Assembly (NCBI GenBank): GCA_018660265.1
Contig: JABJKS010000051.1
Coordinates: 1-64,000, forward strand
DNA length: 64,000 nt
Direction: 5' to 3'
DNA from: Rhodospirillaceae bacterium
GTDB taxonomy: Bacteria > Pseudomonadota > Alphaproteobacteria > GCA-2731375
Positions 1 through 39,680 of the stretch are shown piece by piece. The number at the start of each line of letters is the position of its first letter. Positions within the stretch are counted from its first letter, which is position 1. Position numbers and translations under genes: made by a program. Below the pieces are notes generated by a model. It saw nothing but the letters and a program-made list of their open reading frames with translations. It searched no databases and was not told where the DNA came from.

Positions 1-246
1 ATAGTTTCTTTCATGGTGAACCGTAGGTTTTCCTGGTGTCGTTGTTTCGGTCTAGACATCCAAAACACTACGATATTTCAACAGGTTAATCTACGTTCAC
101 CGCCTAATTCAAAGGCTGGAGTGAATAATTCAGGCTAGGATTACCCGTTGATTACGTTGCATAATCGGGTTTGATCCAGATGCATAAACTGACAAGACTG
201 GAACTAATACCGACAATGTACCCAATTTGTGTACTAGGGGAAATCG
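1..246. other. Upstream intergenic region, no gene seen
   Basis: I see no coding sequence of useful length on either strand. The last 10 bases before the first gene hold a good ribosome binding site (AGGGGAAA at about 235-242). The 7-mer TGCATAA occurs at 158-164 and again at 181-187, so this stretch probably contains the promoter and perhaps an operator of the gene at 247. What lies further upstream is outside the window. Confidence 0.5.
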
Positions 247-30931: not shown

Positions 30932-32206
30932 ATGATCGGGTCGGAAACAATACAAATCGTTGGTGGTGTGGTGATCCTCATTGCCTTTGCCCAGTTGGCC
31001 GTGCTGCTTTACGGTACGTGGCGGGGTGCGGCCTTGGCGCGGGTTCAGCAGGGTTTAGCCAATGATTTATTGCGCCGCCGTGTTGACGCTGAAACCCTGC
31101 ACCGTGAGGTGGAGCGGAAAAAAACGACGGCGACTTGGTCGGGCGCACGGAAATTCCGTATTCGCGACAAGATACAGGAAGGCGGCGATATCTGCTCCTT
31201 CTATCTGGTGCCCCACGATGGCAAAGCTTTGCCGCCCTTTCTGCCGGGGCAATATCTGACCTTTAATCTGCGTCTGCCTGATCGGGAAAAGCCGTTGGTG
31301 CGGTGCTATTCCCTATCAGATAGCCCCCTGCAAACCGATTATTATCGGGTAAGCATAAAGCGCCAGGGACCACCACCCAGGGAGCCTGATGCCCCGCCTG
31401 GATTGTCGTCAAACTATTTTCACCATGATCTCCAGGCCGGCGACATTGTTGATGTAAAGGCACCTTCCGGTGTGTTTTTTCTTGATTTGGCGAAACATCG
31501 GCCGATCGTGTTGATCGGTGGTGGCGTTGGTTTGACGCCGATGATTTCCATGTTGAACGCCATTTGTGAATCCGGATCCCAGCGGGAAGTCTGGTTTTTT
31601 TACGGTGTTCGCAATGGTGATGAACACATCATGCGCGAACATCTGGAAGCCATAGAGTCGGAATATGAAAACGTTCATATCCGCGTCTGCTATAGCGACC
31701 CGAAGGAAGATGAAGTCGAAGGTAAGGGCTTTCAACATAGTTGTCGGGTCAGTGTAGACCTGTTCAAAAAGACCCTCCCTTCCAATAACTATGAATTCTA
31801 CATCTGCGGCCCACCCCCGATGATGACCTCTTTGACCACGGATCTTGGTGAATGGGGCGTGCCCGAAAGCGACATTAATTTTGAGGCGTTTGGCCCGGCC
31901 AGCGTCAAGAAAAAGACGCCGAGCGAGGACGCTGCCGTTGCTGCACCCACGGGACAGGTCGTCACCTTCGCGCGCTCCAATAAAAAAGTAACCTGGGATG
32001 GTAGCCATGGCTCCATTCTTGAACTGGCTGAGGCGAATGGCGTCGATTTAGATTTCGGGTGCCGGGCTGGTAGTTGTGGCACTTGTATTACGGCCGTGAA
32101 AACCGGCGATGTGTCTTATGTGGAAGAGCCGGGCTCGCTACCTGAACAGGGATCGTGTCTGGCATGTATTTCGGTGCCCAAAACTGATTTGGCACTGGAT
32201 GCGTAA
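30932..32206 (+). CDS. Membrane-anchored FAD/[2Fe-2S] NAD(P)H reductase
   Basis: This 424-residue protein has one N-terminal transmembrane helix (about 7-27), a ferredoxin-reductase-type FAD domain with RCYSLSD (124-130), an NAD(P) domain with GGGVGLTPM (196-204) and CGPPPMM (292-298), and a C-terminal plant-type [2Fe-2S] domain with Cys377, Cys382, Cys385 and a later Cys409/Cys412. The order anchor-FAD-NAD-[2Fe-2S] fits a one-polypeptide electron input module that takes electrons from NAD(P)H to a membrane partner, like NqrF or Hcr in principle. It is the first gene of a five-gene same-strand cluster; the tetraheme gene follows after 120 bp. Confidence 0.88.
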   Translation: MIGSETIQIVGGVVILIAFAQLAVLLYGTWRGAALARVQQGLANDLLRRRVDAETLHREVERKKTTATWSGARKFRIRDKIQEGGDICSFYLVPHDGKALPPFLPGQYLTFNLRLPDREKPLVRCYSLSDSPLQTDYYRVSIKRQGPPPREPDAPPGLSSNYFHHDLQAGDIVDVKAPSGVFFLDLAKHRPIVLIGGGVGLTPMISMLNAICESGSQREVWFFYGVRNGDEHIMREHLEAIESEYENVHIRVCYSDPKEDEVEGKGFQHSCRVSVDLFKKTLPSNNYEFYICGPPPMMTSLTTDLGEWGVPESDINFEAFGPASVKKKTPSEDAAVAAPTGQVVTFARSNKKVTWDGSHGSILELAEANGVDLDFGCRAGSCGTCITAVKTGDVSYVEEPGSLPEQGSCLACISVPKTDLALDA

Positions 32207-32326
32207 TTTGGGCTGGGCAGGATGTTCTGTCCTGGCCTCGACAAAACAAATTGTTATGCCCGAGCGTATTTTAAATTTGAGCGTTCGGGTCAAGAAAGAT
32301 TGGAAACTAAAATGTGGGGAAGTCTC

Positions 32327-33331
32327 ATGATCAGGAAATCACGCATATTTATGATGGCGTTTGCGGTACTCGGTGCCTTAGTGTTAATGCCGAATTTGGC
32401 CAAAGCTGAGAAGTTGCACCTGGACTCTGCCAAGGTTATGGGACCGGATGCTTGCGGCGAATGTCACAAATCTTCTGTGGAGTCATGGAAGGGCAGCCAC
32501 CATTTTTCAACGTTTAAGACCCTGCCGCGCAAGAAAGAGGCGCGTGAGGTTGCCGATAAGATGGGCATCAAGCGGATCAAGGCGGATAGTGATTGTCTTT
32601 CCTGTCACTTCACCTCTGCCATGGTCAACAATAAGCCCAAGCCCATCGCAGGTATAACCTGTGAATCCTGCCACGGTGCCGGGCGTGATTGGATCAAAGT
32701 CCATAGTGATTTTGGTGGCAAAGGCGTAAAGGCGGAGAATGAAGCCCCGGCCCACAAGACGGAACGTTATGCCAAGTCTGAAGCCGCTGGCATGATCCGG
32801 CCCGGAAATTTGTATCAGGTGGCGCAAAACTGTTACGGCTGCCATACGGTTCCCAACGAAAAATTGGTCAACGTGGGCGGCCATGCAGCAGGCAGTAAGT
32901 TTGAACTGGTTGCGTGGAGCCAGGGCGAAGTTCGCCATAATGTCTGGTACAGCAAAGAGAACCAGATCGCACCGGTGGAGCGTCAACGGATGATGTATCT
33001 GGTTGGCCGGGCCCTGGACTTGGAGTTCAGCCTGCGCGGTGTCGCCAAGGCGACAACCAAGGCCGATTATGCAGTCAAGATGGCGAAGCGGGCCAAAAAG
33101 GCACGTAAGCGGATCAAGGCAATTGCCAAGCTGGTGGATGCACCGGAATTGATGGCAATGTACAAAGCTGCCAAAGGTGTCAAATTAAAGCTGAACAATG
33201 AGGCGGCGTTGACGGCCGCCGCGGACGCGGTTGGTGCCCAGGCGATGGCAATGGCCAAGAATTATGATGGCAGCAAATTTGGCGGTTTGGACCAGTACTT
33301 GCCCAAGGCCTCTAAGTACAAAGGCAAATAG
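32327..33331 (+). CDS. Periplasmic tetraheme cytochrome c (c554-like)
   Basis: The 334-residue protein starts with a signal peptide (about 1-27, cleaved after AKA) and has four CxxCH heme sites: CGECH (43-47), CLSCH (90-94), CESCH (112-116) and CYGCH (169-173). Spacing and context (ACGECHKSSVESWKGSHH) resemble the cytochrome c554 family, which carries electrons for hydroxylamine oxidation in nitrifiers. The C-terminal half has no heme and contains a very basic helix (KMAKRAKKARKRIKAIAK, 251-268). I chose the ATG at 32327 after GGGGAAG because it leaves a proper signal peptide. It should exchange electrons with the decaheme protein of the same cluster. Confidence 0.85.
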   Translation: MIRKSRIFMMAFAVLGALVLMPNLAKAEKLHLDSAKVMGPDACGECHKSSVESWKGSHHFSTFKTLPRKKEAREVADKMGIKRIKADSDCLSCHFTSAMVNNKPKPIAGITCESCHGAGRDWIKVHSDFGGKGVKAENEAPAHKTERYAKSEAAGMIRPGNLYQVAQNCYGCHTVPNEKLVNVGGHAAGSKFELVAWSQGEVRHNVWYSKENQIAPVERQRMMYLVGRALDLEFSLRGVAKATTKADYAVKMAKRAKKARKRIKAIAKLVDAPELMAMYKAAKGVKLKLNNEAALTAAADAVGAQAMAMAKNYDGSKFGGLDQYLPKASKYKGK

Positions 33332-33400
33332 CAGCTATTTGTGGGTTTAAGCCCGGTTGGGCCTTGCATTAGTTCGTACAAAATTGTCGGAGAGGGAATA

Positions 33401-33421
33401 ATGGCAATGTGCCATGGTTGA
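33401..33421 (+). other. Possible six-codon leader peptide overlapping the next start
   Basis: A minimal reading frame (Met-Ala-Met-Cys-His-Gly, then TGA) starts at 33401, 3 bases after a strong GGAGAGGGA site at 33389-33397. It runs through the ATG at 33414 of the large fusion gene in another frame. The large gene itself has no site at normal distance, because its ATG lies 16 bases after that site and an in-frame stop at 33399 excludes earlier starts. Translation of the leader followed by reinitiation is possible. Confidence 0.3.
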
Positions 33422-35225
33422 GGCTGTCACCATACAACGACCCCGGCGTTGGGACGCGCGGTTTTCCGAAGATATGGATAACGCCGCAGTAGATCGTGTC
33501 CTGAAGCTGGAGCCGTTCCGGGATATGGATCACGACCGTTTTCCCGATACTCTGTCTCTCGCCGGTATCGTCAGCAACGACACCCGTATCGTACGCTTTC
33601 AGGATGGCGACATCGTCATGCGCGAAGGTGACTACGGTAATTCCGCCTTTTTGGTTATCAGTGGCCAGGTTCGGGTCGTGTTGCCGCCTGGCTTGCCGGA
33701 GACGATGTTGGGGCGGGCGCCCAGTGAGAAAAAGAGTCTGCTGCAAGCTGTTGCCCAACTTTGGCGCAACCCACCTTATCCGGAAGTGAGGGATTCCTAT
33801 ACGGCGGAAGAGAATAAGGGCACGGCAAGCCGGATTGGTGGCGATCAGGAAGCACGAATTTTCATTCAGGACGTGCCGACGGTTTTGAACGAACATCGCA
33901 CCGCAACATTGGGCGCGGGGGATATGTTCGGCGAAATTGCCGCCCTGGGTCGCAGCCAGCGAACGGCGACAGTTCTATCTGACGGTCCCGCAGAATTGCT
34001 GGAAATACGCTGGCAGGGACTGCGGGATATTCGCCGGCGGGTGGATGATTTCAGAAAGCATGTGGACCGGTTGTATCGGGAACGCAGTCTGGCCTCTCAT
34101 CTGCAGGCAACGCCGATGTTCCAGCATCTCGATCAGGAGGCGATCAACCGCATCGTCGATGAAACCCTGTTCGAGACCTATGGTGATTTCGATTGGCACA
34201 CTCAATACCAGCGCAGCCGCGATGAAAGTTTCAACAGCCGTTTGGCCAGCGAGCCGACAATCGTGGCGGAGGGCGATTATCCCGATGGTCTGTTATTAGT
34301 GCGGGCCGGCTTTGCCAGGGTCAGTCAAGGCGTTAATAATGGCCATCGTACGGTCCGTTATATCGGTCGTGGCGCGGTCTTCGGTATGGCGGAGATCGTT
34401 CATAATTGGCGTCAGGATGTAAGCCGGCGAAATAGCGATACTGATGGGGACGATGGAGACGGGGCACAGAGTCAGTCGGCCCCTACGGACCATGGGTCTA
34501 CGAAAACTTTGCAAACCACACTGCGCGCCCTTGGCTACGTCGACATTCTGCGTGTGCCGACGACGGTGATTGAGGAATTGGTTCTGCCTACGCTGTCGGA
34601 TGAAGAGCTGGCCCTTTATGGCCATCTTGATGAACAGGCAGAGACGAGCGATACGTTTATCGGAGCCAATACCACGGATCATTCAATGATAGATCCTGGC
34701 ATGTTGGAGTTCCTGGTCGAACATCGCTACATCAACGGTACCGCCACTATGTTGATAGACCTTGATCGCTGTGTACGTTGCGATGAATGTGCTGTCGCCT
34801 GTTCCCGGGCACATGATAACAACCCTCGCTTCAATCGTCATGGTCGCCGCCATGACCATTATATGGTGGCGAATGCCTGTATGCATTGTATGGACCCGGT
34901 CTGTATGATTGGCTGCCCCACAGGTGCGATCCATCGCGCCTCGCCCGGCGGCCAGGTGGTTATAAACGATGCGACCTGCATCGGTTGCGCGACCTGTGCA
35001 AATTCCTGCCCCTACGACAACATTCGTATGGTTGAGGTGCGGGGCGGGAATGGCACCTTTATTCGCGATACGGTCACCAATGCGCCCATCGTCAAGGCGA
35101 CCAAATGCGACCTTTGCATGGATCAGTTGGGCGGACCTGCCTGCGAACGGGCTTGTCCACATGATGCCCTGAAGCGCGTGGATATGCAGGACCTGACAGA
35201 CCTTGGGAGGTGGTTAAACCGGTGA
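33414..35225 (+). CDS. Fusion of two cyclic-nucleotide-binding domains and a four-cluster ferredoxin
   Basis: This 603-residue protein without signal peptide has a first cNMP-binding domain (about 55-215) that contains a roughly 60-residue insertion (about 95-160). Its phosphate-binding cassette FGEIAALGRSQRTATV (172-187) has the conserved Glu and Arg. A second, degenerate domain (about 232-390) reads FGMAEI and lacks them. The C-terminal part (about 440-590) is an NrfC/PsrB-like ferredoxin with 16 Cys in four groups: 453/456/459/463, 489/492/497/501, 522/525/528/532 and 565/568/577/581. So it should carry four [4Fe-4S] clusters in the cytosol. Its stop overlaps the start of the heme b gene (GTGA). 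Confidence 0.88.
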   Translation: MVEAVTIQRPRRWDARFSEDMDNAAVDRVLKLEPFRDMDHDRFPDTLSLAGIVSNDTRIVRFQDGDIVMREGDYGNSAFLVISGQVRVVLPPGLPETMLGRAPSEKKSLLQAVAQLWRNPPYPEVRDSYTAEENKGTASRIGGDQEARIFIQDVPTVLNEHRTATLGAGDMFGEIAALGRSQRTATVLSDGPAELLEIRWQGLRDIRRRVDDFRKHVDRLYRERSLASHLQATPMFQHLDQEAINRIVDETLFETYGDFDWHTQYQRSRDESFNSRLASEPTIVAEGDYPDGLLLVRAGFARVSQGVNNGHRTVRYIGRGAVFGMAEIVHNWRQDVSRRNSDTDGDDGDGAQSQSAPTDHGSTKTLQTTLRALGYVDILRVPTTVIEELVLPTLSDEELALYGHLDEQAETSDTFIGANTTDHSMIDPGMLEFLVEHRYINGTATMLIDLDRCVRCDECAVACSRAHDNNPRFNRHGRRHDHYMVANACMHCMDPVCMIGCPTGAIHRASPGGQVVINDATCIGCATCANSCPYDNIRMVEVRGGNGTFIRDTVTNAPIVKATKCDLCMDQLGGPACERACPHDALKRVDMQDLTDLGRWLNR

Positions 35226-36043
35226 TTACATTTTCCCGACGTCGCTGGCGAAATGGTCTTATCAGCGCGATAGCAGCTGTAGGACTGTTCGCTTGGTATA
35301 CGGCCTACGACGTCTCCCTTTATCAACCGGCCTATCTGACCGGGTGGTTGCTGCTGGCCCTCATCGTGCTGTTGACCCTCTATAATGGGCGCAAAAAGCT
35401 GTCCATGGTGCCCCTTGGTACGGCGGCGACCTGGTTGCAATGGCATGTCTATATGGGGCTTTTGGCTGTTCTCACATTTGCCATGCATATTGAATGGAGC
35501 ATCCCGAACGGTTTTCTGGAACGTTTACTGGCGCTGTTTTTTGTCGCTGTAGCGGGTAGCGGGTTGTTGGGGCTTTATCTGTCACGACGCTTTGCCAGGA
35601 TGCTGACCCGTCGGACCGAGGAAGTGGTGCTGGAAAGAATTCCGGAGTTCATCGCGAATTTGCGCGGCGAGGCCGAAGAGCTTGTCATGACCTCCGCAGT
35701 GGAGACGGGGTCGTCCTCAATCGCGGATTATTACGGCAATCGGTTGGCGGACTTCTTTGCCGGGCCGCGAAACATGCGCCTGCATCTGCAAGGCTCGCGG
35801 CGGGCGACGTTCGCGCTCATGACGGATTTGAATATCATGACCAGATACCTGAATGATCAGGAAATGGTCTATGCGGACAGATTGCGCCGTCTGGTCGAGC
35901 GTAAGGATCAATTGGATTATGCCTATGCCTTGCAAAGCGTTCTGAAAGGCTGGTTGTTCGTCCATCTGCCGGCGACGTACGGCATGATATTAATGATCTT
36001 GTTGCACCTGCTGTTAGTTTATTCCTTTGGTGGGGCGCGCTGA
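35222..36043 (+). CDS. Diheme b-type membrane protein
   Basis: The 273-residue protein has about five transmembrane segments (about 11-30, 38-55, 72-92, 99-120, 248-268). Two pairs of His with the same spacing lie in two helices: His75 and His89, and His248 and His262, each H-x13-H, as in ferric reductase and NOX-type heme b proteins, so two stacked hemes b are likely. The loop at about 125-240 is cytosolic by the positive-inside rule. I chose the GTG at 35222, which overlaps the upstream stop and follows GGGAGG, over the GTG at 35210. Its stop overlaps the next start (TGATG). It probably carries electrons across the inner membrane. Confidence 0.78.
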   Translation: MITFSRRRWRNGLISAIAAVGLFAWYTAYDVSLYQPAYLTGWLLLALIVLLTLYNGRKKLSMVPLGTAATWLQWHVYMGLLAVLTFAMHIEWSIPNGFLERLLALFFVAVAGSGLLGLYLSRRFARMLTRRTEEVVLERIPEFIANLRGEAEELVMTSAVETGSSSIADYYGNRLADFFAGPRNMRLHLQGSRRATFALMTDLNIMTRYLNDQEMVYADRLRRLVERKDQLDYAYALQSVLKGWLFVHLPATYGMILMILLHLLLVYSFGGAR

Positions 36044-38502
36044 TGAACGAGCCATTGCAACCTTTCGGCTATCGTGAAAGCCCCTATATACGGCCTGGGC
36101 AAAAGTGGATGTGCGGGCGCGCCGGGGAAGGTTGTCCCTGTCAAAACGGACCCGACGATGCCGGTAACTGCCGCGGCGGTTTTGAATGTGAACCGGCCCG
36201 ACACGGTGATCGTTGGTCGTGCACACGATCGCAGTTTTCAGGTGGACCTTGCGAAAACGGGCCCATGGCCAATGGCATGTGTTGCCGCCAGGTCCCACTT
36301 TGCCGCCCGGTTCGCAGTTGGCGTGCCCGGCGCGGTGCGGTTATGCGCTGGGTCTTTGCCTTGGTTGCGGGTTTGTTGATTTTTGTCCTTGCCTCCAGTT
36401 TCCGTACAGATTTCATCGATCCGGGCGAACTGTCTTTTCAACATGCGGAGTTGACGGACTGTGGGACCTGCCATACGGCATTCCATGGCGGTATGTCGGG
36501 TTGGTGGCGCGCCGCGCTGTCCGATGATGTTGCAAAGGATGACAGCCAGCCCTGTATTGCCTGCCATAAGATGGGTGATCGCGGATTGCTGCCTCATAGC
36601 CTACCGGCGGATGAATTGCAGGCCCGTAGCAAAGACATTGCGCCCGCCACCGCACCGGGTCGAAGCATCGGTGTCAAACTGGCCGGTCTGGCATTTGGGA
36701 AACCGCAGGAAAATGCGGAATCCCTGCCCTGCATGACCTGCCATCAGGAACATGGCGGTGCCGAAGCGGATTTGACCACAATGTCTGATGACCGCTGCAC
36801 CAGTTGCCATCAGGTTCAGTTCGATAGTCTGGCATCGGGCCATCCGGATTTTGCCCAATATCCCTATACACGCCGGACCCGGCTGCAATTTGACCATACC
36901 AGCCATATCGATAAGCATTTCCGCGATCAGAAAATGGTGAAACTGGCACCGGGCGAATGCCGGGATTGTCACAAGACCGACACCAATGGAAGATTGATGG
37001 AGGTTCGATCGTTCGAGACTTCGTGCGGTGCCTGTCATGGAGCCCAGGTTGCGGGTGCTGGGCGGGCCAGTGCCAAGGGCTTGGCTGTCTTTGTCGTGCC
37101 TGGTCTCGACGTAATCTCGTTACGCGACAGCGGTGCTGCAGTAGGTGAATGGCCTGAATATGCCGAAGGCACGGTGCCACCGTTTATGAATATGCTGCTT
37201 TCATCGGATCCTAAATACCGGGATGCCCAAGGTACATTGGCGACCATTGATGATCCGTTGGACCTGTCGGAGGCAACGGCGGATCAATTAGCTGCGGTGG
37301 AAACCCTTGTCTGGGGTGTGAAGTCGTTGCTGTATGATTTACGAGCGGACGGCGTGGCCACCCTGCATGATCGCTTGCAAAAAGTTTTGGGGCGCGCGCT
37401 GACAACGGCTGAAAAGGCATCCCTAACTGCGTTGTTACCCTTGGATACAATTGCCGCCGCCCAGACCGAATGGTTCCCGGCATTAGGCGGCGAGATTCCT
37501 CGCAGGCGTGATGGTGAAAAGATCCTGATGCCCATGGAAGTGGTGCCAGAACCGGCAAAGGCGTCGAATACAGACAATAAAAAGCCTGACGACGACGAAG
37601 AAGACGAAGATGGTGAAATCGGCACCGGCAAAGACGATGATGACGATGACGATGATGAAATCGGCACCGGCAAAGACGATGATGACGATGACGATGATGA
37701 AATCGGCACCGGCAAAGACGATGATGACGATGACGATGGTGAAATCGGCACCGGCAAAGACGATGATGACGATGACGATGACGATGACGAGATTGGCACT
37801 GGCAAAGACGATGACGAAGATGGCGAAATCGCCACGGACGAAGACGACGACGACAAAAAAGATGCGGGTAAAGCTGGCAGCATCACTGCTGTCGCCCTTG
37901 TCCCAGCGATCGAAGGGGCCGGGGCTGAGGATTGGAACCGATCAGGTGGTTGGTATCGTGACGAATTTACCCTGCGCTATAGGCCAACGGGCCACGAGGA
38001 TCAGTTTATTCGTGCCTGGCTGGATTTAACCGCACCTGCGGCTCCGTCGTTTAAGGCAAGCCGCCAGATCTTCGAAGAGTTGATCGATCCCAAAGCGCCG
38101 GGCTTGTGCGGAAAATGTCATTCTGTGGATCAACTTGCCGAGACAGGGTCGAAAAATCAGGGCCATAAAGTCAATTGGACGGCTTACAAGCCTGAAGACG
38201 GCTTAAAGACATCCGTGCATTTTTCTCATTCCGCCCACTTCAGCCTTTTGGATGAACGGGGCTGCCTGACCTGCCATAAGCGGGATCGTGATGCGGACTA
38301 TGCGGGCGGCTTCAAGGATCGCGCGCCGGCCACGTTCCAGGCCAATTTCAAACCATTGCCCAGGGCGGTCTGCGCGGAATGCCACACATCCGCAAAAGCC
38401 GGTGACAACTGCCTGACCTGCCACAACTATCACCTCGGTGTTTATCAACCAGTCGTGGCGCATACCAAGGGAATGCTGCAGGACGCCTCAAATAAACCTT
38501 AG
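36043..38502 (+). CDS. Single-pass decaheme cytochrome c with cytosolic Cys-rich module and Asp-rich linker
   Basis: This 819-residue protein has three parts. Residues 20-90 are Cys-rich and contain two copies of a module: Cys 24/33/43/49 and 60/70/80/87, each with the core C-x-N-G-P-x5-C-x5-C. A transmembrane helix follows (about 102-120), with the Arg-rich side (RARRGAVMR) facing in, so the Cys module is cytosolic and the rest periplasmic. The periplasmic part has ten CxxCH sites starting at residues 140, 171, 230, 252, 306, 328, 689, 741, 777 and 790. An Asp-rich repeat (517-608) separates the first six from the last four. No signal cleavage site is seen. It overlaps the heme b gene and is the last gene of the cluster. 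Confidence 0.83.
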   Translation: MNEPLQPFGYRESPYIRPGQKWMCGRAGEGCPCQNGPDDAGNCRGGFECEPARHGDRWSCTRSQFSGGPCENGPMANGMCCRQVPLCRPVRSWRARRGAVMRWVFALVAGLLIFVLASSFRTDFIDPGELSFQHAELTDCGTCHTAFHGGMSGWWRAALSDDVAKDDSQPCIACHKMGDRGLLPHSLPADELQARSKDIAPATAPGRSIGVKLAGLAFGKPQENAESLPCMTCHQEHGGAEADLTTMSDDRCTSCHQVQFDSLASGHPDFAQYPYTRRTRLQFDHTSHIDKHFRDQKMVKLAPGECRDCHKTDTNGRLMEVRSFETSCGACHGAQVAGAGRASAKGLAVFVVPGLDVISLRDSGAAVGEWPEYAEGTVPPFMNMLLSSDPKYRDAQGTLATIDDPLDLSEATADQLAAVETLVWGVKSLLYDLRADGVATLHDRLQKVLGRALTTAEKASLTALLPLDTIAAAQTEWFPALGGEIPRRRDGEKILMPMEVVPEPAKASNTDNKKPDDDEEDEDGEIGTGKDDDDDDDDEIGTGKDDDDDDDDEIGTGKDDDDDDDGEIGTGKDDDDDDDDDDEIGTGKDDDEDGEIATDEDDDDKKDAGKAGSITAVALVPAIEGAGAEDWNRSGGWYRDEFTLRYRPTGHEDQFIRAWLDLTAPAAPSFKASRQIFEELIDPKAPGLCGKCHSVDQLAETGSKNQGHKVNWTAYKPEDGLKTSVHFSHSAHFSLLDERGCLTCHKRDRDADYAGGFKDRAPATFQANFKPLPRAVCAECHTSAKAGDNCLTCHNYHLGVYQPVVAHTKGMLQDASNKP
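37615..37824 (+). repeat. 42-bp tandem repeat encoding an EIGTGK-poly-Asp linker
   Basis: About five units encode EIGTGK followed by six to ten Asp residues, starting at residues 525, 539, 553, 567 and 583 of the decaheme protein. The first three units are exactly 42 bp (14 residues); later ones have lost or gained GAT/GAC codons. A sixth, degenerate unit (EIATDE) follows. All length changes keep the frame. The repeat makes a long, very acidic and probably flexible linker between the two heme domains. Confidence 0.92.
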
Positions 38503-38612: not shown

Positions 38613-39680
38613 TCAAATAAACGGCAGATGATCCGGGGCCAGCGATAGATAATCGTCTAACAGCCGGTTTTTTGCATCCGCGACGCAATGATGCTGACAG
38701 GACTTGGCCGGGTCTATGGCCGCCAAATTCTGTTTGTTCTCATCGGAAAACCAGAATTCCCGAAAACTTTGCGCTGTGATGTCGCCCAGGGTTCCGCTTT
38801 GGGTATAGGCCTTGTCCTGACAGGTATAGACTTTGCTGTCAGCCCCGATGACCGTCAACATCTTGGCAAATTCGCAATTCTTGTACGGCTTGAAAAAATT
38901 GACTTCCATGCTGTGATAATGATCAACCACATGAAACGTAGCATCATCCAGCTCTTTGGCTTGTGCGATTTGTTCCTGGACCACATCCTTAAAGGCGTCG
39001 TGATAGAGATTATTGTCAGCCCCGTCGTTGGCAATAATGCAGGGTGAAATTTTGACATGGGCTACACCTGTGTTCTTCAGGCTTTGGCATAGCTCTGCAA
39101 TATGTGATGCATTGCGTTCATCAACGATGATGGATGCGCCTACGACACATTCGGCACCCCGTGCCGAAAAGGCGGTGAGATTGTCCATGACCGCACCAAA
39201 CGCGGTGTCTTCAACAGAGCGGTATAATCCGTATGAAGGCCCGTCCCAGCCATCGATAGAGACGCGCAACCAGGTGCCATGGGCTGCCAGGGCGTCTGCC
39301 ACTTTGCCCTTCAGGCGGGAGCCATTGGTCAATGACGCGATCTTGATGTCGCCCCCGGCCAAACGTTCCACGGTTTCCGCAAAATAGGGATAAATCAGCG
39401 GTTCGCCTCCGCCCGAGAAGGTGACGGCTCGAACTTTCATCGCGATCAGATCATCCACAATCTCAAACATTTTTTCCCGGGGAATGCGGTCGCGTACCAC
39501 CATGTCCTCACCTAATGAGACATCGTCCGTGCGATAGGCGCAGAAATAACAGCTATGATTGCAGACATTGGTCGGCTTAATGCGGACATGCACTGGTGCC
39601 GGCAGTTCGCCTGCGAGCATGGCATCAAGAGAGCCGTGGTAATGCAGGGCTTTTAACGACGAATAAATGGCATTTTGCAT
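38613..39680 (-). CDS. Radical SAM protein with a SPASM-like C-terminus
   Basis: This 355-residue protein has the radical SAM motif CNHSCYFC (Cys40, Cys44, Cys47), which binds a [4Fe-4S] cluster and SAM. The glycine-rich SAM contact VTFSGGGEPLIY follows. The C-terminal part has Cys residues in NCEFAKML, YTCQDKAY and SCQHHCV, which resemble an auxiliary cluster of the SPASM/twitch type. The product is not known. The gene converges with the redox cluster 110 bp away and has its own promoter region. Confidence 0.85.
   Translation of the reverse strand: MQNAIYSSLKALHYHGSLDAMLAGELPAPVHVRIKPTNVCNHSCYFCAYRTDDVSLGEDMVVRDRIPREKMFEIVDDLIAMKVRAVTFSGGGEPLIYPYFAETVERLAGGDIKIASLTNGSRLKGKVADALAAHGTWLRVSIDGWDGPSYGLYRSVEDTAFGAVMDNLTAFSARGAECVVGASIIVDERNASHIAELCQSLKNTGVAHVKISPCIIANDGADNNLYHDAFKDVVQEQIAQAKELDDATFHVVDHYHSMEVNFFKPYKNCEFAKMLTVIGADSKVYTCQDKAYTQSGTLGDITAQSFREFWFSDENKQNLAAIDPAKSCQHHCVADAKNRLLDDYLSLAPDHLPFI

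Follow-up and report, generated by a model that had tools for sequence, protein, structure and literature searches.

A putative NAD(P)H-coupled trans-envelope electron conduit with a candidate cyclic-nucleotide site, corresponding to the inner-membrane half of PCC4, in a Rhodospirillaceae bacterium

The window analyzed here, a 64-kb stretch of a Rhodospirillaceae genome, carries five open reading frames on the same strand at positions 30932-38502, which we call p1 to p5. All five were found where a preliminary description of this DNA had placed them, each with the cofactor motifs that it had counted, and the start/stop overlaps that it had reported among the last three genes are present in the sequence (GTGA at 35222-35225 for p3/p4, TGATG at 36041-36045 for p4/p5). 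We found no Rfam elements or tRNAs within the window, and promoter and terminator scans scored equally well on shuffled sequence.

The first gene, p1 (30932..32206, plus strand), encodes a membrane-anchored NAD(P)H-type FAD/[2Fe-2S] reductase, with an N-terminal transmembrane (TM) helix at residues 9-27, FAD and NAD domains and a C-terminal plant-type ferredoxin domain (PF00175, E 6e-22; PF00111, E 3e-11; PF00970, E 3e-6). It scores 260 bits against the reductase part of flavohemoprotein, and the cluster cysteines C377, C382, C385 and C412, together with the FAD and NAD motifs, are at least 95% conserved across 64 sequences. The sphingomonad p3 carries a fused Pyr_redox domain, with no p1 nearby. 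The p2 product (32327..33331, plus strand) is a periplasmic tetraheme c554-like cytochrome with four CXXCH motifs (PF13435, E 1e-16; PDB 1bvb, E 4e-11). Its reading frame opens at 32222, and its true start is probably the ATG at 32327, which is preceded by GGGGAAG and opens a signal peptide; p1 and p2 would therefore be uncoupled. For c554/c552-like cytochromes, action on nitrogen oxides is also possible.

The p3 product (33414..35225, plus strand) is a cytoplasmic protein, with no predicted TM helices, that combines two cyclic-nucleotide-binding domains (CNBDs) with four [4Fe-4S] motifs (PF00027, cNMP_binding, E 6e-23; PF13247, E 5e-9). Each of the 16 cysteines of these motifs is conserved at 99-100% across 72 sequences from several phyla. 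CNBD 1 is interrupted by an insert, and CNBD 2 has a degenerate cassette in the type found in the window. The phosphate-binding cassette of CNBD 1 (33927..33974, plus strand; FGEIAALGRSQRTATV) includes E174 and R183, the residues that in CNBDs contact the ribose phosphate. It has the G-E pair and the R at +9 of the PF00027 cassette, and the FGE...R pattern is kept across phyla, with G173 and E174 in 72/72 sequences (100%) and R183 in 71/72 (99%); the cassette is also retained in the distant sphingomonad type. The nearest CNBDs in the PDB are those of cGMP-dependent kinases. The cyclic-nucleotide-binding subunit of the preliminary description is thus upheld as a predicted, intact site. The likeness to NrfC noted there scores 36.8 bits, far below the family cut-off of 377.6 (TIGR03149).

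The p4 gene (35210..36043, plus strand; candidate starts GTG 35210 or GTG 35222) encodes a predicted five-TM diheme b membrane protein, which corresponds to the PCC4 "IMP". It lacks cysteines and carries two histidine pairs, H79/H93 and H252/H266, within the motifs W75-x3-H79-x13-H93 and W248-x3-H252-x13-H266, as well as S117-G-x-x-G121. Across 55 aligned sequences the four histidines are invariant, and W75, W248 and S117-G118-G121 are invariant or at least 90% conserved. The AF2 model has a pLDDT of 93, with the helices present. No Foldseek match fell below E 0.5, and therefore the heme-b fold rests on the motifs. VIA scored SpNOX at Z 6.8 and cytochrome b561 at 7.5, values within the noise for helical bundles; its matches to McpS, TorS and PilJ resemble generic long helices and were set aside. 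Pfam gave no match to the ferric reductase TM domain (PF01794) in p4.

The last gene, p5 (36043..38502, plus strand), encodes a single-pass decaheme c-type cytochrome with a periplasmic heme domain (ten CXXCH motifs, one TM helix; PF14522, E 4e-15); the heme motifs are 95-100% kept across 77 sequences. Its score against the DmsE/MtrA decaheme family (TIGR03508) is 16.9 bits, for a cut-off of 192.2. The cytoplasmic N-terminal tail (36112..36309, plus strand), which gave no match in Pfam, contains tandem 4-Cys repeats, C24 C33 C43 C49 and C60 C70 C80 C87, with G/P spacers. These eight cysteines, each conserved at 94-95% in the 77 sequences, had been overlooked earlier. The repeats probably bind metal.

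Relatives of the five-gene set occur in several phyla, and full synteny is kept in the source genus, in one further genus of the family and also across several phyla. In the 51 GTDB loci with sufficient flank, p5 is accompanied by p4 in all 51, by p3 in 48, by p1 in 49 and by a c554-like cytochrome in 49, which bears out the earlier claim that the genes form one set. Such a set is no chance neighborhood. Nor are the motifs accidental: the p4 histidines are invariant (n=55) and the 16 p3 cysteines are kept at 99-100% (n=72) over several phyla. A tree of p3 was built with a quick method, and its deep branches are weak. We found no relatives of p4 among viral contigs. The only relevant matches in the plasmid search were from Sphingobium, where the cultured strain Sphingobium herbicidovorans MH has a version of the system on its plasmid pMSHV; matches to E. 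coli and HydN were dismissed as generic ferredoxins.

The preliminary description knew of no such complex and claimed a new system. However, He et al. 2017 (PMC5566968) had predicted a putative porin-cytochrome complex, PCC4, whose Subgroup II the set matches feature by feature. By the condition that the preliminary description itself had set, its claim of a new system therefore fails, and we rejected the idea of a five-gene system unknown to science. According to its main text, Subgroup II combines a porin with cytochromes of 4, 5 and 10 hemes; the IMP has five TMs, with SGXXG on TM4 and WX3HX13H on TM3 and TM5; a pfam13247 Fe-S gene precedes the IMP gene and a redox gene precedes the tetraheme gene; and the hosts are Alpha- and Gammaproteobacteria and Planctomycetes. 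Correspondingly, p4 has SGXXG and both WX3HX13H motifs, in the alignment of 55 sequences and with the helices of the AF2 model; p2 and p5 account for 4 and 10 hemes, with a pentaheme gene elsewhere in the genome; p3 lies directly upstream of p4, and p1 directly upstream of p2. Matched in this way against the published feature descriptions, the five genes are the predicted inner-membrane half of PCC4 Subgroup II. The main text of PMC5566968 mentions neither a cyclic-nucleotide domain nor FAD, and neither a 4-Cys tail nor a second kind of outer module; relative to it, the conserved p3 cassette, the p5 4-Cys sites, NAD(P)H-type reductases as the cytoplasmic partner and two mutually exclusive outer-membrane modules are new.

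The source genome differs from PCC4 in that its porin and pentaheme genes are on other contigs, unlinked from the five-gene core. The pentaheme gene is found on C102 and C73, each piece ended by the contig end, and a homologue of the outer-membrane barrel lies beside the pentaheme gene (L183, 905-2536). To the preliminary description no terminal acceptor or donor had been apparent; the exit that was missing is now placed in this barrel and pentaheme on the other contigs. The barrel family accompanies the pentaheme in 21/22 loci; its members have an outer-membrane barrel fold (Foldseek E ~1e-11 to AlgE, MOMP and OprD), nearly all with a C-terminal aromatic residue, and the best fold matches are to substrate channels and not to conduits of the MtrB type. 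The pentaheme profile matches the T. tepidum pentaheme c552 (E 2e-15), a protein described as related to Geobacter ExtKL (PMC11976967), and five invariant histidines outside the CXXCH motifs make bis-His ligation possible for all its hemes. Among 385 alphaproteobacterial genomes, 64 are p4-positive, and all 31 with the pentaheme are among them (hypergeometric P 4e-28, with no correction for phylogeny). The association holds even where the genes are unlinked, and about half of the p4-positive Alphaproteobacteria are without the pentaheme. In verrucomicrobial and sphingomonad versions, an unrelated 10-heme LVIVD cytochrome and another barrel replace it, so that a pentaheme goes with a barrel of ~500 aa and an LVIVD decaheme with one of ~800 aa.

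We also compared the set with other known systems. The Geobacter ExtHIJKL/PHC family shares a pentaheme and a porin-like barrel with ours (PMC6148476, PMC5877670, PMC11976967), whereas the ext cluster is described with a rhodanese lipoprotein alongside a Rieske/cytochrome b pair, and its description names no cNMP-Fe-S protein. The logic of a decaheme plus a porin is common to MtrCAB, PioAB and MtoAB, but our p5 is membrane-anchored and below the DmsE/MtrA cut-off, and the matches listed for the barrel are AlgE, OprD and MOMP. CymA, CbcL/MtoC and ImcH, inner-membrane quinol oxidases of extracellular electron transfer (EET; PMC6295460), have a similar role between the inner membrane and periplasmic multihemes, whereas the window set has separate Fe-S, heme-b and decaheme subunits and an NAD(P)H-type reductase. 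He et al. 2017 (PMC5615132) reported porin-multiheme clusters in Verrucomicrobia, including Opitutus, which likewise combine a porin with multiheme and extracellular cytochromes, but are described with 8-heme periplasmic cytochromes. Our literature searches turned up no cNMP-Fe-S subunit in EET.

The gene set, its motifs, their conservation, the synteny and the co-occurrence with pentaheme and barrel are established at the level of sequence. We consider it probable that the window set forms the half of PCC4 (Subgroup II) at the inner membrane and that this system is an NAD(P)H-coupled trans-envelope electron conduit. In such a conduit, p1 would trade electrons with NAD(P)H, and its [2Fe-2S] cluster would connect to the four [4Fe-4S] clusters of p3 at the cytoplasmic face. 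From p3, electrons would reach two stacked hemes b of p4, an inner one at H79/H252 and an outer one at H93/H266, and then the decaheme p5. Beyond p5, the tetraheme p2 would link the decaheme to the pentaheme, which would sit at the outer-membrane barrel and exchange electrons with a partner outside the cell. Binding of a cyclic nucleotide to CNBD 1 of p3 would probably alter docking or electron flow. The route suggested in the preliminary description, from NAD(P)H through Fe-S clusters and heme b to periplasmic hemes, is thus plausible. Against the model stand the motif basis of the p4 heme-b fold, the likeness of the barrel to substrate channels, the p4-positive genomes without the pentaheme, the possible action of c554/c552-like cytochromes on nitrogen oxides, and the published model, which ties PCC4 to the quinone pool with inward flow. 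Direction and substrate are the parts that we infer with least support; a net outward flow would be slightly preferred because an NAD(P)H reductase is present.

Reasoning from habitats and from the resemblance between the IMP and quinone-active cytochromes b, He et al. proposed the opposite direction (main text of PMC5566968). An extracellular donor, e.g., Fe(II) or Mn(II), would be oxidized at the outer membrane and electrons would flow inward, p4 reducing quinone, with p3 and p1 as side branches, e.g., for NAD+ reduction. Cytochrome conduits are described as bidirectional, and we regard this reading as a serious possibility, albeit not the favored one. Yet p3, with its 16 near-invariant cysteines, adjoins p4 at almost every locus, 49/51 loci have p1, and the sphingomonad p3 is fused to an NAD(P)H-flavin domain; this constancy and the fusion suggest a main role for the cytoplasmic branch. 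Periplasmic detoxification of nitrogen oxides or oxyanions, with NADH feeding p2 and the pentaheme to reduce NO, hydroxylamine, nitrite or selenite and with the barrel as an import channel, could draw on the c554 kinship of p2, the match of the pentaheme to the c552 structure, the resemblance of p1 to the reductase half of the NO-detoxifying flavohemoprotein and of the barrel to OprD/AlgE channels, and the defective selenite/tellurite reduction of Geobacter extI mutants. We consider it improbable: the exchange of the pentaheme for an unrelated LVIVD 10-heme cytochrome with another barrel is easier to reconcile with a conduit than with a single fixed enzyme, and the five invariant pentaheme histidines suffice for bis-His ligation throughout.

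The CNBD of p3 might instead be a structural relic or bind another ligand, with no cyclic-nucleotide control, as the degenerate second cassette of the window type would allow; we judge this quite possible, if on balance doubtful, given that E174 and R183 persist from phylum to phylum, the distant sphingomonad type included. In favor of control, a class III cyclase is encoded in 75/75 of the core-positive genomes searched and in 50/75 core-negative ones; genome size and phylogeny confound this contrast, which shrinks when genomes below 2 Mb are dropped (34/40 core-negatives then have one). In favor of a relic, cyclases close to the locus are about as frequent as their number per genome would predict: one lies next to 17 loci, but the source genome alone has 33 such domains in 5.5 Mb, and we rejected proximity as proof of signaling. 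Still, p3 holds an intact candidate cAMP/cGMP site, so the chain could be switchable by a messenger.

A broader proposal, which we put forward only tentatively, is a widespread NAD(P)H-coupled electron exit gated by cAMP/cGMP, in which two previously unrecognized 4-Cys metal sites would lie between the Fe-S subunit and the decaheme chain, and two outer modules would be interchangeable. If true, extracellular electron transfer would be under second-messenger control at the level of the protein. If the conduit model holds, the core would be a candidate EET trunk over several phyla. Among these are Verrucomicrobiota and Planctomycetota, for which the literature we found describes it only partly (Planctomycetes under PCC4). 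This trunk would take electrons from NAD(P)H, not from quinol alone, and be tuned by a second messenger. The plasmid-borne version of Sphingobium herbicidovorans MH makes the idea open to laboratory test.

The five genes p1 to p5 lie on the forward strand of the window (30932-38502), with the coordinates, strand, and cofactor motifs that the preliminary description had assigned to them. The first, p1, is a FAD/NAD/[2Fe-2S] reductase with one N-terminal helix; p2 is a c554-like cytochrome with four CXXCH motifs and a signal peptide; p3 combines cNMP-binding domains (CNBDs) with 16 cysteines for four [4Fe-4S] clusters and has zero transmembrane (TM) helices; p4 carries two H-x13-H pairs; and p5 has ten CXXCH motifs and one TM helix (signal peptide and helices from hydropathy). 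The overlaps GTGA (35222) and TGATG (36041) are present as well. The start of p2 is probably ATG 32327, preceded by a ribosome-binding-like GGGGAAG and followed by the signal peptide; with this start, p1 and p2 are neighbors that lack translational coupling. The AlphaFold model of p4 is confident (pLDDT 93), and its helices fit five TM segments plus a helical insert (residues ~136-243), which by the positive-inside rule would be cytoplasmic. A radical SAM gene (38613-39680, reverse strand, 355 aa) is convergent to p5, and a 355-aa gene occupies the equivalent position in a relative (L044). The first ~138 bases of the window (1-138), found in about ten further copies at 99-100% identity, mostly at contig ends, are a dispersed repeat breaking this assembly.

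The preliminary description knew of no described respiratory complex with this gene set. The set does, in fact, match Subgroup II of PCC4, a putative cluster of a porin with 4-, 5-, and 10-heme cytochromes (He et al. 2017, PMC5566968). The PCC4 inner-membrane protein has five TM helices, with SGXXG on TM4 and WX3HX13H on TM3 and TM5, and a redox gene lies upstream of the tetraheme gene; in Subgroup II, reported from Zeta-, Gamma-, and other Alphaproteobacteria and from Planctomycetes, a pfam13247 Fe-S gene lies upstream of the inner-membrane protein (PMC5566968). The window p4 shows the same motifs (W75-x3-H79-x13-H93, S117-G-x-x-G121, and W248-x3-H252-x13-H266). Since every feature stated for Subgroup II is found in the window's genome, we regard the five-gene set as a new member, with its outer-membrane genes unlinked from the five-gene core. 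Our literature search found no experimental work on PCC4, which goes unmentioned in PMC10654088, PMC10734462, and PMC12016527.

The joint synteny for which the preliminary description had proposed to search is conserved. Most of the genus genomes searched keep p1 to p5 in the window's order, as does one other genus of the family. A p4 alignment, run against 84,980 species, gave 263 confirmed relatives; the best 80 of these, taken as named loci, belong to Alpha- and Gammaproteobacteria, Verrucomicrobiota, Planctomycetota, Nitrospinota, Myxococcota, and Hydrogenedentota. For 51 loci, the available flank is at least 5 kb on the upstream side and at least 2.5 kb on the downstream side; in these, p5 accompanies p4 on the same strand in all 51, p3 is directly adjacent to p4 in 48, p1 is present in 49, and 49 have p2, either as a tetraheme protein or as a variant with mostly 3 hemes. 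All four histidines of p4 are invariant (55 sequences), and the 16 cysteines of p3 are each kept in 99-100% of 72 sequences. Whole genomes positive for p4 number 64/385 in the Alphaproteobacteria set and 36/398 in the Pseudomonadota set. One related species (G004) has two copies of the core, L030 on contig C11 and L031 on C24; in the second, p2 is reordered and on the opposite strand, and this copy is accompanied by a separate pentaheme and a separate member of the barrel family.

A ~690-aa pentaheme cytochrome adjoins the core in 22 loci, and a ~500-aa protein in 21, all of which also have the pentaheme. The pentaheme profile matches T. tepidum pentaheme c552 (5ze8, E 1.6e-15), whose structure PMC11976967 links to Geobacter ExtKL and archaeal cytochrome nanowires. 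Nearly all members of the ~500-aa family start with a signal sequence and end in an aromatic residue; the AlphaFold model (pLDDT 70, ~20 strands) matches the AlgE, MOMP, and OprD barrels (Foldseek E ~1e-11), and the protein is a predicted outer-membrane barrel. This pair would form the exit of the chain, the strongest evidence being co-occurrence: all 31 pentaheme-positive Alphaproteobacteria genomes fall among the 64 p4-positive ones (385 genomes; hypergeometric P 4e-28, uncorrected for phylogeny), including genomes with the genes on separate contigs. In the window's genome, both genes lie outside the window, on contigs C102 and C73. The pentaheme pieces there, L182 3-1628 (-) and L183 3-827 (+), overlap in the family alignment and differ at several residues (e.g., DNIPNGM/DNIPSGM); both are truncated where their contigs end, and they may represent either two copies of the gene or variants from different strains.

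Instead of this pair, 13 of the 51 loci, almost entirely from Verrucomicrobiota, carry a ~1300-aa LVIVD-repeat decaheme cytochrome and a ~800-aa barrel, and none carries both modules. Where the pentaheme is present, p2 is the tetraheme form (17/17); where the LVIVD module is present, p2 is the mostly 3-heme variant (13/13). The LVIVD module also occurs at L037, from a genus in the same family as the window, and beside a distant p3-p4-p5 core on a Sphingobium herbicidovorans plasmid (46% identity over ~1300 aa). In these two, the CNBDs and [4Fe-4S] motifs of p3 are fused to a pyridine-nucleotide-disulphide oxidoreductase domain at the N-terminus, and p1 is absent from the vicinity; by this Rosetta-stone argument, the cytoplasmic partner of p3 would be a NAD(P)H flavoreductase. 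The Sphingobium locus (pMSHV, L042 1-21161) holds, besides the LVIVD cytochrome and its barrel, a CcmH-type TPR protein, a metallophosphoesterase, a FhaC-like transporter, and an EAL protein. Neighbors of the core in Verrucomicrobiota loci such as L074, L072, L075, and L086 include a CHASE2-class III cyclase, a FecR protein, and a small protein of outer-membrane type, frequently together with one resembling HbpS.

In the first CNBD of p3, the phosphate-binding cassette takes its classical form, FGE-x8-R, with E174 kept in 72/72 and R183 in 71/72 sequences; in the PDB, the closest sequences belong to kinases dependent on cGMP or cAMP. The second CNBD has lost the cassette arginine in window-type p3; in the distant sphingomonad type, the first cassette is kept and the second CNBD is canonical too. 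Class III cyclases occur in 75/75 core-positive genomes searched versus 50/75 core-negative ones, a weak consistency check; proximity of a cyclase to the locus was not significant. The terms "cyclic," "cNMP," "pfam00027," and "FAD" are absent from the main text of PMC5566968, relative to which the cNMP domain is new, with priority uncertain. An apparent N-terminal FHA domain, seen by eye on p1 of a Hwanghaeella MAG (L058 6315-8243), is a possible second regulatory input.

The account of p5 as a single-pass decaheme protein stands, but it overlooked two tandem ~37-residue repeats in the cytoplasmic N-terminus, before the TM helix, each with four conserved cysteines (C24 C33 C43 C49; C60 C70 C80 C87; in ~94% of 77 sequences). 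A Pfam search of p5 found no family over these repeats, which, to judge from sequence, likely bind metal at two cytoplasmic sites, as Fe-S clusters or as Zn. Between hemes 6 and 7, p5 has an acidic low-complexity repeat (window ~37600-37860, built from about five D(n)EIGTGK units), a region where its homologs differ in length.

Beyond the observed composition, conservation, linkage, and co-occurrence of the system, we infer a carrier order, a membrane sidedness, and cyclic-nucleotide gating. The chain would most likely lead from NAD(P)H through FAD to the [2Fe-2S] cluster of p1, then through the four [4Fe-4S] clusters of p3 and the two hemes b of p4 to the ten hemes c of p5, and on to the outside by way of p2 and the pentaheme at the barrel, with electrons slightly more likely to flow outward than inward; a cyclic nucleotide on p3 is a plausible valve. 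In the model proposed for PCC4, an extracellular donor supplies electrons that end in the quinone pool (PMC5566968); here, the Fe-S subunit together with reductases of the NAD(P)H type argues for a NAD(P)H link, in either direction. The earlier interpretation is partly supported, the claim of a new kind of system giving way to the PCC4 match. The main interest lies in the cyclic-nucleotide site and its conservation, the 4-Cys tail of p5, the interchange of outer modules, and the much wider distribution.
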